This document shows positions 56,742-60,438 of a stretch of DNA of 64,000 bases, piece after piece. The position numbers were made by a program, and so were the translations under genes. The DNA is from Bacteroidetes bacterium ADurb.Bin012. GTDB lineage: Bacteria > Bacteroidota > Bacteroidia > Bacteroidales > TTA-H9. Location of the stretch: contig MWFC01000001.1 in the NCBI GenBank assembly GCA_002071415.1, positions 186,001-250,000 of the forward strand. The letters run 5' to 3'. Under the pieces are notes generated by a model. It searched no databases. It was not told the origin of the DNA and saw nothing but the letters and a program-made list of their open reading frames with translations. Numbering within the stretch: the first letter of the stretch is position 1; each line of letters opens with the position of its first letter.

Positions 56742-57875
56742 TTATCCCAGACAATACAGTTTAAGTCCACCGAACCATATTTTCCCCTCTTCTATGCAGG
56801 CCGAACTCCGGATAACATCGCGGGTTATATAATCCCATTCTATATGGCCATTAGAAAGCTGCAGGCAATAGAATTTTCCATCGTCGCAGCCAAAATATAC
56901 ATTTTCTCCACAAATAACTGGAGAGGAATGAATTGCTCTATCAAATCTGATTTGCCATAAAATTTCTCCATTCAAAGGACAGAGGGAATATAAAATTCCT
57001 GATCTTGAGCCAAAAACAAGATGATTAGTATCGATAGCAGCGGAAGAGAATATGGGAGAAGCAAGAGTTTCTTGCCAGATAATATTCCCTTGGTCTCCAT
57101 TCAAACAATAAAAATTATTACCCAAAGTACCCACAAAAACATGACCTTTGAAAATAGCTGCCGTAGCATGAATGGCTGCATCCAATCGAGTTTTCCACAG
57201 AAGACTTCCACTGTGTATATCCAACGCATAAATCCATCCATCACGGCTTCCCACAATTAATTTTCCATTGGTAAAAGCTGGAGATGCCACTACCCATCCT
57301 TCGGTTTCATAGTTCCATTTCAATTTTCCCGAATAAGCATCCAGCGCATAAATATTTCCATCTATTCCTGAGATATATAAGATACCATTCAAGACTGCAG
57401 GCGATGAAAAAACCCAGTCTTTGGTTTCGAAACTCCATTTCATTCGTCCGTTGTTGGCATTCAGGCAATAGACATGATGGTCGAAACTGCCAAACCAAAG
57501 CAAACCATCGTTTATAGCGGCCGTTGACCTTATTTCACGTCCCGTCTTGAATTGCCAGATGAGCGAACCATCCTGCGCATCTAAACAGAAAAAACTATGG
57601 CTGTCGGAGCCGAAATATACTTTCCCTTCGGCCATCACCGGACTGGCATAAACGCCGGCAAGTTCATGAAAGGTATAAAGGACTTTTGGATATTGATTTA
57701 TAGACTTTGTTTTGGCAATTCCTGTTCTGGAATAATTACCGCGGAACATGGGCATAAACGAAGGATTCCTTTCTTCGGCCTTCATGATGAGCTTCTGCGT
57801 TACATCCAACAACATGCTGGCTTGTTTTACGATTCCTTCATTTCTTTTCCGTTCTAACTTTCCTAAGTTGCTCAT
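56742..57875 (-). CDS. cytoplasmic PQQ-type beta-propeller protein
   Basis: 377 residues. After a charged N-terminal helix (residues 1-40) come about eight blades of the PQQ/quinoprotein repeat, each with a core like GxxYxLDAxxGxLxWxxxT (for example GNIYALDAYSGKLKWNYET, DGWIYALDIHSGSLLWKT). Repeats resemble BamB, but there is no signal peptide or lipobox, so a cytoplasmic binding platform is more likely. Its first 38 bases overlap the end of the J-domain gene, so the two are almost certainly translated together. Function unknown; there are no visible PQQ-dehydrogenase catalytic residues. Confidence 0.85.
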   Translation of the reverse strand: MSNLGKLERKRNEGIVKQASMLLDVTQKLIMKAEERNPSFMPMFRGNYSRTGIAKTKSINQYPKVLYTFHELAGVYASPVMAEGKVYFGSDSHSFFCLDAQDGSLIWQFKTGREIRSTAAINDGLLWFGSFDHHVYCLNANNGRMKWSFETKDWVFSSPAVLNGILYISGIDGNIYALDAYSGKLKWNYETEGWVVASPAFTNGKLIVGSRDGWIYALDIHSGSLLWKTRLDAAIHATAAIFKGHVFVGTLGNNFYCLNGDQGNIIWQETLASPIFSSAAIDTNHLVFGSRSGILYSLCPLNGEILWQIRFDRAIHSSPVICGENVYFGCDDGKFYCLQLSNGHIEWDYITRDVIRSSACIEEGKIWFGGLKLYCLG

Positions 57876-58776
57876 GTTCGGTTTTCAAAAATTGATATTC
57901 AGCATTCAACTTCATTTTTGTCTGCTCAAAATATTCATCCCAATCGCGAATATTCATCAGAGTATGATAAACTTGACTTTCTTCGAGTTCACGGATTTCG
58001 GACTGCAAAATTTTTAAATCGGCCTGCAGGCGTGCTAAACGAGCCTCCAGAAGTTCCCTTTCTTCACTAGGAGTACGTAGCCTACTAAACATCCTGCTCC
58101 GTGTAAGTAATTTATGTATCTCTTCTACTTTTTGAATGTCGTTAATCATATAGGCGCGATTGAGTTCTATGAAAACCTTTCGAGCTTCTTCACGAAAGTC
58201 GTCGTTCACGATATCGGGGTGACACAGTTTACTGGCTTCACGATACATTTTTTTCATGCTTTCGCGCTGCTTTTCATCAAGAATTTGTAAAGGCTGAATT
58301 TTTTCCAAGCTGCGCCTTTGATGCTGATAAGCAGTATAATCCTTTTTGGCTTCTTGGTAATTTGCCTGATATGAGGAATCTACATCCTGAAGTAAATAAA
58401 ATATCTCCATCTGTATTTTCAAAATCTTTCCGATAAGCCATCCCAAGTCACTGTTATGACGAATACGAAACCGATCAATCTCCTTGAGTATTTCTGTTTT
58501 CTTATATTGGACCACCGAAAGCTGGGTTTCAAGAATTCTTATTTGAGTTTTAATTCCTTGAATGTTAATGTCGGAAGGAACAATATGCTGGGTTTTTTGC
58601 AATACATCTTGAATCTCATGGGTCAATTCTGTGAATAGCTTTTGACGAAAGAGATGGTAAAGATATTTCACTTCTTCGCTATGATCTTCGAGGAGAATGG
58701 CATCAAACTCGAGCTGGAGTTCGGTCAATTTGCGCTGTTCCAATAAATGTAAAATGGTTCGCAGACGGCGGTGCAT
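57838..58776 (-). CDS. coiled-coil protein with internal J domain
   Basis: 312 residues. Two coiled-coil regions (about 70-105 and 235-310) flank a J domain at about 165-220, recognised by the HPD tripeptide (186-188) in MYREASKLCHPDIVNDD and the following helix FIELNRAYMIND. No Gly/Phe or zinc region, so it is a class C-type J protein that would recruit DnaK to a special client or site. The obvious partner is the beta-propeller encoded next, overlapping by 38 bases. It is 9 bases from the upstream amidohydrolase gene. Confidence 0.82.
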   Translation of the reverse strand: MHRRLRTILHLLEQRKLTELQLEFDAILLEDHSEEVKYLYHLFRQKLFTELTHEIQDVLQKTQHIVPSDINIQGIKTQIRILETQLSVVQYKKTEILKEIDRFRIRHNSDLGWLIGKILKIQMEIFYLLQDVDSSYQANYQEAKKDYTAYQHQRRSLEKIQPLQILDEKQRESMKKMYREASKLCHPDIVNDDFREEARKVFIELNRAYMINDIQKVEEIHKLLTRSRMFSRLRTPSEERELLEARLARLQADLKILQSEIRELEESQVYHTLMNIRDWDEYFEQTKMKLNAEYQFLKTEHEQLRKVRTEKK

Positions 58777-58785
58777 CAGCAGCTG

Positions 58786-60438
58786 TTATTTATGAAAAAC
58801 ACATTTACCATTAATCCAAGTTTGTTCTACCACAATATGAGGTATGCTGTCGTCGGGAAGCTGCATCAAATCATCGGAAGTTACGATAAAATCGGCTTTT
58901 TTACCTGGTTCTATCGAGCCGATTTCATTTTCGAGGAATGTTGATTTTGCAGCCCAAAGCGTCATGCCATACAAGGTTTCGCGTCGTGAGAGTTTGTTTT
59001 GGGGTAAAAAACCGCCTGGAGGTCGATGTTGCAAATTTTTTCGGGTAGTGGCTGCATAAAAGGTGAATATGGGATTTACCTCTTCTATGGGGAAATCGGT
59101 CCCCAAAGCTATCCATCCGTTTTGGGTGAGAAGATCGTGGTAAGTATAAGCATATTGGAGGCGTTGGGGTCCAAGGCGTTTTTCAGCCCAATCCATATCG
59201 GAAGTTGCGTGAGTTGGCTGAACGGAAGGAATGATGGAAAATTGACCAAATTTCATCAAATCTTCAGGATCGACTACCTGAGCATGCTCTATACGCCAGC
59301 GACGATCATTCTTACCTTTCAATATTTCGGAATAAATATCCAGCATCAATCGGTTGGCCGAATCGCCAATGGCATGTGTACACACCTGAAAATCAGAATT
59401 ATATGCTTTAAGACAGATTTCTTTCAGTATTTGGGGAGATTCAACAAGAAGTCCATGAGTATTGGGGTCATCGGAATAAGGACTTTTTAAAAGAGCACCT
59501 CGACTGCCCAAAGCTCCATCGGCATAAAGTTTTATAGCGTTTACCAACAAACGATCGGTTTTGTATATGCCATGATGCATAAATTCAGAAATTGTGAGCG
59601 AATCAGGATTGATCATGGCAACAATCCTGATCTTTAGAACTCCATTTTTTTGTAATTCATCTATCGTATGAATGACATGAGTCGGCAGTCCTGCGTCATT
59701 TACCGCAGTCAATCCATACGAAATGCAAATAGCTTCAGCCTTTTGCAGGGCATGTTTCAGCAATTGTTCATCCATGGCGGGGATGGCTTCCATCAATTTT
59801 TCCTTGGCATTATCCAGAAGCAATCCAGTGGGTTTTCCCTGAGAAATTAAAATTTCTCCACCGTCTATTTTAGTATCGGAAGATATACAGGCGAGTCGAA
59901 GTGCCATGTCGTTGGCCAGAGCTGCATGACCATCCACCCGAACTATAACTACTGGGATATTGGGAAAATTTTTCTCAAGTAAGGAATTATCGGGAAACTT
60001 ATTATCAGGGAAGAGATTTTGGTCCCATCCCCTACCCAGCAACCATGTTTGAGGATTTTCTGCTATAAACGACTTCAAGCGTTCGATGATTTCATCCATG
60101 GAACGAGTGCCTTTTAAGTTAGCCCATCTTATCATGGTTTCACCCAATCCCAAAAAATGGCAGTGTGCATCCATAAAGCCTGGGTAAACGGTTTTCCCGT
60201 GTAAATCGAGTGTATCACGGGCCGAAAACTTCTTCAGAATCTCTTTGGTTTTGCCTGTTGATAGAATTCGCCCTTCCTTGATGGCAAAGGCCTCCTGTTG
60301 GCTGAAATGTTCATCGAGTGTATAAACATTCGCATGAATGACAATGAGGTCGGCTTCCTGTTTTTGCTCGTGGCAACTACTCAATACTAGAAATATCATA
60401 GGAAAAATAGATAAAGAAAAGATTTTTTTCATAGACAA
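58786..60438 (-). CDS. lipoprotein amidohydrolase (YtcJ-like)
   Basis: 550 residues. Lipoprotein signal with lipobox VLSSC (Cys at about 22). Amidohydrolase fold: DLHGKTVYPGFMDAHCHF (His-x-His metal ligands), CTHAIGDSANRL, WRIEHAQVV, and LGTDFPIE with a late Asp. YtcJ-like members act on formyl, urea or related amide compounds; the natural substrate is unknown. Placement between transport and J-domain genes in one run suggests shared expression. ATG at 60432 is an alternative start. Confidence 0.87.
   Translation of the reverse strand: MSMKKIFSLSIFPMIFLVLSSCHEQKQEADLIVIHANVYTLDEHFSQQEAFAIKEGRILSTGKTKEILKKFSARDTLDLHGKTVYPGFMDAHCHFLGLGETMIRWANLKGTRSMDEIIERLKSFIAENPQTWLLGRGWDQNLFPDNKFPDNSLLEKNFPNIPVVIVRVDGHAALANDMALRLACISSDTKIDGGEILISQGKPTGLLLDNAKEKLMEAIPAMDEQLLKHALQKAEAICISYGLTAVNDAGLPTHVIHTIDELQKNGVLKIRIVAMINPDSLTISEFMHHGIYKTDRLLVNAIKLYADGALGSRGALLKSPYSDDPNTHGLLVESPQILKEICLKAYNSDFQVCTHAIGDSANRLMLDIYSEILKGKNDRRWRIEHAQVVDPEDLMKFGQFSIIPSVQPTHATSDMDWAEKRLGPQRLQYAYTYHDLLTQNGWIALGTDFPIEEVNPIFTFYAATTRKNLQHRPPGGFLPQNKLSRRETLYGMTLWAAKSTFLENEIGSIEPGKKADFIVTSDDLMQLPDDSIPHIVVEQTWINGKCVFHK

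Follow-up and report, generated by a model that had tools for sequence, protein, structure and literature searches.

What does a J-domain protein gain from a beta-propeller whose gene begins inside its own? The question is raised by a 64,000-nucleotide stretch of contig MWFC01000001.1 of Bacteroidetes bacterium ADurb.Bin012 (the window), in which the end of a gene for a J-domain coiled-coil protein overlaps the start of a gene for a BamB-like propeller. An earlier note, made from the sequence alone, took the pair for a complex that recruits DnaK and in which the propeller reads or holds a client. Adjacency and the lack of a signal peptide keep this as the leading model, although the recruitment of DnaK is inferred only. 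We believe, with a probability of about 0.55, that the J protein is a scaffold carrying a docked, interchangeable sensor, that its J-domain hands the held target to DnaK, and that nuclease-bearing forms of the scaffold cut. The note had the pair right, but it missed the swapping of modules, the docking segment, the nuclease and the link to TerY-P described below.

57838..58776, reverse strand: J-domain coiled-coil protein of 312 amino acids, the proposed scaffold (open reading frame, PF00226, all-helical model)
56742..57875, reverse strand: cytoplasmic BamB/PQQ-like beta-propeller of 377 amino acids, the proposed sensor subunit (open reading frame, Pfam, model, Foldseek)
57838..57875, reverse strand: overlap of the J gene end and the propeller gene start, 38 bases, as the note had it (open reading frame calls)

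A conserved gene pair

Is the overlap an accident of one genome? Within the order, all ten short J homologues found (the window's included) are followed by a gene for this propeller, and all ten pairs overlap, by 4 to 38 bases; because it is kept throughout, the overlap is more than chance. A first sample of 60 relatives gave J homologues in four genomes (G001, G004, G007, G047), and sampling the order more widely added five short J proteins (G986, G796, G942, G846, G903); in every case the propeller follows. Searching in reverse from the propeller within the 60-relative set, we found five propellers above 630 bits, all beside a J gene, with the next best at 210 bits. The ten conserved pairs and this reverse search led us to reject an incidental neighbourhood of the two genes. 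The note had asked whether the two families are neighbours elsewhere and whether the propellers carry signal peptides; indeed they are neighbours, and none of the ten propellers of the window type has a signal sequence, whereas three of the next-best propellers of relatives, which are not of this type and were inspected, do. The distribution is patchy: among 295 genomes from the order, 12 match the J profile.

The gene upstream of the pair in the window is the following.

58786..60438, reverse strand: lipoprotein-type amidohydrolase, ending 9 bases from the J gene

An amidohydrolase stands in this position in seven of the ten pairs, a HydE-like radical-SAM gene in two and an IspD-like gene in one (the latter two names come from sequence inspection). 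Since the upstream genes vary, it is the J/propeller pair that forms the conserved unit. The amidohydrolase is associated with the pair but not obligatory, and its absence from three pairs rejects an obligatory partnership.

One pair (L144, 3875-9023, G986) shows the genes for DnaK, a HydE-like radical-SAM protein, the J protein and the propeller in this order on one strand, with dnaK two genes upstream. This gene order may tie the pair directly to DnaK at the level of the genome.

The J protein

58591..58776, reverse strand: N-terminal four-helix segment, residues 1-62, with a conserved R-L at its start (model and alignments)
58300..58575, reverse strand: long coiled coil, residues 68-159 (model)
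58144..58290, reverse strand: J-domain core, residues 163-211 (PF00226 match; PDB profile matches at 169-212)
58213..58221, reverse strand: HPD tripeptide, residues 186-188, in a CHPD context, invariant in 28 homologues
57844..58071, reverse strand: C-terminal coiled coil, residues 236-311, with a conserved YF at 282-283 (model and conservation)

Can this protein be called a J protein with confidence? By Pfam score alone it is borderline: PF00226 gives 27.6 bits, just short of its cut-off of 27.8 bits, and 30.7 bits when the whole genome is searched. Other evidence is clearer. The HPD tripeptide, read by the note at the correct residues, does not vary across an alignment of 28 diverse homologues, and adjacent helix residues are also conserved. 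A profile of the family matches solved J-domains (auxilin, DNAJB6; best E-value 1.5e-7) over residues 169-212. The structural model (predicted local distance difference test score, pLDDT, 88.9; predicted template-modelling score, pTM, 0.54) is all helical, with four short N-terminal helices, and its helices 168-185 and 192-210 flank the HPD loop as in a J-domain. Foldseek with this model returned coiled coils only, none significant. The note's remark that no standard client-binding region is present also holds: the protein has neither the DnaJ zinc finger, nor the Gly/Phe region, nor the C-terminal client-binding domains, and the J region alone matches DnaJ models. The host genome encodes two full-length Hsp70 genes.

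The propeller

57768..57845, reverse strand: N-terminal amphipathic helix, residues 11-36, the proposed docking segment (model helix; family-level profile alignment)
56748..57683, reverse strand: propeller blades, residues 65-376 (model)

The BamB-like repeats and the missing export signal noted earlier are borne out. Pfam assigns the protein to PQQ_2/BamB (8.4e-41) and PF13570 (1.2e-74), and inspection of the sequence finds no hydrophobic signal. The model (pLDDT 89.3, pTM 0.84) has BamB among its nearest solved natural folds, at a Foldseek template-modelling score of about 0.76, and its strand list reads as eight blades. The helix at 11-36 lies outside the propeller proper and is modelled with low confidence. 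A scan of our genome collection with the propeller gave weak matches only, at 20-27% identity in endosymbiont genomes, and no lead came from them.

Relatives with a nuclease domain and other partners

The window protein is homologous to a wider family of CHPD coiled-coil J proteins, as profile search, alignments and a tree agree, and the CHPD is invariant throughout the alignments. Of 395 genomes searched across the class, 19 have J relatives. Many of these are 450-500 amino acids long and carry an N-terminal PLDc_2 domain, placed before the four-helix segment; in four of five checked it matches at E-values of 1e-22 to 1e-24, and in L048 it is degenerate. The HxK...D...GSxN residues are intact in most of the long relatives, and their PLD parts weakly match DrmC models. 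The window protein, whose sequence begins at the helical segment, has no PLD nuclease domain, and the other short members likewise lack one.

In the tree the ten propeller-paired short forms fall into a single clade (support 96/91); elsewhere, short and PLD-bearing forms are mixed. The tree has several long branches, and its deep branching order is uncertain. A PLD-bearing J protein with an upstream PQQ propeller that carries a strong form of the motif described next (L045) falls far from the short clade, as sister to a relative paired with leucine-rich repeats (99/92). From the placement of L045 relative to the short clade we conclude that module exchange is frequent and that a propeller probably joined the family on more than one occasion.

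What stands beside the distant J genes is diverse: TPR, LRR, WD40, Fib_succ_major, PQQ propeller, gyrase-A C-terminal propeller and WG repeats, and a W-rich repeat with no Pfam family. This last repeat (L040, 4686-6005; L108, 708-2048) is about 35-40 residues long and reads like LPWS-x-EL...W-x-W. At L107 (4022-4999, G605) the C-terminal beta-propeller of DNA gyrase A (PF03989) occurs apart from gyrase and follows the N-terminal segment common to the partners.

A shared N-terminal segment

The partners of the distant J relatives share an N-terminal segment of roughly 30 amino acids with the consensus L-x-K-V-x-N-x-I-A-I-T-N-K-L-L. Its profile has 16 matches in the 395 genomes, and 16 of 16 lie beside a J gene. 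Because the profile was trained on loci from those same genomes, the informative part of this result is the lack of matches away from J genes. The motif also recurs beside J genes in loci outside the training set (L103, L104, L107, L108, L141-L143); the first four of these are its top four matches, two of them with E-values above 0.1. Counted by hand, the core J loci with a motif partner are about 28 of 34, and in four others (L046, L047, L165, L166) a TerY-P triad takes its place.

Do propellers of the window type have this segment too? Taken as a profile, the ten align in register to the motif over residues 10-39 (P 4.7e-4), and none of 200 column shuffles reached the alignment score (21.3 observed, 13.9 the shuffled maximum). 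The propellers of L055, L144 and L145 have motif scores of 16-21, where the highest score among 183 neighbouring proteins used as a control is 10.2. In six of the ten the aligned N-terminal site is the best site of the entire protein, and the nearly invariant T26 corresponds to the invariant Thr of ITNKLL. Because profile alignment, shuffles, member scores and T26 agree, the motif can be assigned on sequence grounds to the window-type family, with the window copy as a diverged member.

Defence-type neighbours

Among the relatives that bear the PLD domain, L046, L047 and L166 directly adjoin TerY-P triads (TerY with its vWA domain, PP2C and a Ser/Thr kinase), which are reported to be antiphage (PMC7699616, PMC11090510). 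At L046 (G192:C6, 403-11783) defence genes are densely packed: a type I restriction gene and pAgo are followed by the J-PLD gene, itself undescribed, and then by TerY, PP2C, the kinase and DUF4407; L047, L165 and L166 have a similar gene order. The more distant members L051 and L052 adjoin a vWA gene that is accompanied by genes resembling PP2C and kinase genes, and L037 has an FRG-domain gene in its neighbourhood. Two members of the family are on IMG/VR contigs, one of them, by inspection, near lysozyme- and tail-like genes.

Proposed mechanism and its alternatives

We propose that the J and propeller genes make a dedicated complex. The propeller would be the recognition subunit, docking through its N-terminal helix (about residues 11-36) on the coiled-coil scaffold of the J protein. 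Once the propeller holds a target, the J-domain would present it, via HPD, to the DnaK of the cell, which would remodel or remove it. The scaffold of the relatives would accept other modules that begin with the same N-terminal segment, and the PLD nuclease domain found in many of them would be the effector. Because the window form has no nuclease, DnaK or another host effector would have to act there.

What would such a complex recognize? Most likely the J family serves the recognition of foreign or abnormal molecules, because its scaffold swaps modules and often carries a PLD nuclease. Together with the company of TerY-P, these features shift the likely role from ordinary chaperone work to recognition and conflict. 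A conflict role is plausible for the wider family and unproven for the window form. As a whole the family resembles a modular recognition system, so far undescribed, that belongs to a single phylum of bacteria. There is a fair chance that the wider family represents a new class. More tentatively, and at somewhat less than even odds, that class would be an undescribed prokaryotic system of immunity or surveillance, in which a J scaffold, often with PLD, takes swappable sensors through a common docking helix and couples what their propeller, LRR, TPR, WD40 or WG modules recognize to DnaK remodelling and nucleic-acid cleavage.

Several points weigh against our proposal. The N-terminus of the window propeller itself scores -1.6 with the motif, no better than background; its link to the motif runs via family members, and a motif partner adjacent to its J gene is recognized at family level only. 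At two core J loci (L039, L050) both the motif partner and the TerY-P triad are missing. The defence-type neighbours were read locus by locus, and the window pair lies in ordinary chromosomal surroundings with no nuclease. Finally, physical docking, stimulation of DnaK, the target and the conflict role are all inferred.

Some of these points suit a more modest explanation, namely that the J protein is a specialised member of class C which, with a client adaptor of its own, does housekeeping on one native class of clients and has no part in conflict. The order-level forms lack PLD and form one clade with the propeller, the surroundings of the window pair are ordinary, seven of ten pairs share the amidohydrolase gene, and dnaK is found two genes upstream in L144. 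Against a housekeeping function stand the patchy distribution in the order and the homologous scaffolds, which swap modules, carry nuclease domains or adjoin TerY-P; in our opinion this explanation is unlikely. One may also suppose that the J-domain has ceased to act with DnaK, so that DnaK plays no part and the protein is a mere coiled-coil scaffold for sensor and effector. Indeed the Pfam score is borderline here and often below the cut-off in relatives, and the remainder of the protein is coiled coil. The HPD, however, is invariant in 28 diverse homologues, helix residues next to it are conserved, and genuine J-domains are among the matches of the family profile; that the protein has parted from DnaK is distinctly improbable.

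The propeller could instead be an exported, BamB-like envelope protein that stands beside the J gene by accident. The fold and the lipoprotein-type amidohydrolase upstream would agree with this. Against it, all ten window-type propellers overlap the J gene and lack the signal sequence that the three other propellers inspected have, and the BamB equivalog model gives 154 bits where its cut-off is 285.2 bits. Because the signal sequence is lacking and the equivalog score is low, we rejected an export or BamB role, and the whole explanation is largely refuted, with hardly any probability left to it.

If the docked-sensor proposal is true, J-domain proteins can be a plug-in platform for interchangeable recognition proteins, and the chaperone system is part of the response. 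It also offers a sharp signature for finding such systems, in which the gene next to that of a CHPD coiled-coil J protein opens with an ITNKLL segment.

Comparison with known systems

The arrangement of J scaffold and sensor is akin to class C J proteins and to modular conflict systems. Class C J proteins, for example auxilin, also combine an HPD J-domain without zinc finger or client-binding domains with a targeting region; the window J protein is instead paired with a separate co-translated propeller, and its relatives have a PLD domain and exchange partners. With BamB and other PQQ propellers the window propeller shares fold and PQQ repeats, but it has a free N-terminal helix in place of an export signal and a gene that overlaps the J gene.

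The family resembles conflict systems that use adaptor domains and variable repeat modules (PMC7159879, PMC8195603) in its constant core, short adaptor and interchangeable repeat or propeller modules. Neither a J-PLD protein nor the ITNKLL motif is mentioned in those papers, however, and in their sole DnaJ case the protein is fused to FNIII repeats and lies near GAP1-N2 GTPases. In another system DnaJ mediates phage sensing by bNACHT25, and J-domain function is required (PMC12169576). There, too, a J protein takes part in the sensing of infection, but it is the general DnaJ of the host acting with an NLR-like protein, with no dedicated J scaffold or docked sensor. As for TerY-P, no triad of TerY, PP2C and kinase genes is present at the window locus or at the loci with motif partners, and no text linking a J-PLD protein to the triad was found among the papers searched. 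PADLOC-DB 2.0.0 (anti-phage systems) has no significant match for the window J protein or propeller. The note knew of no described system with this pair; our literature searches, which did not reach subscription papers, likewise gave none, and in them no J-domain/PLD protein is described that has partners of this kind.

Other similarities

A weak coiled-coil similarity just beyond the window (L009, E-value 7e-4) was judged to be chance. Matches of 35-60 bits in other classes, as well as L127 and L128, are distant J proteins with no motif partner and were left out of the core family. L127 (7428-8597) and L128 (8001-9176) are plasmid-borne DnaJ-family proteins of enterobacteria, about 390 amino acids long and above 200 bits with the J profile; their genes are solitary, with neither a motif partner nor TerY-P genes. 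On a plasmid of Hymenobacter canadensis (L129, 5950-6775), PLD-like reading frames are split and lie near a short TPR gene and a gene of the SIR2 family; this is possibly a decayed relative.
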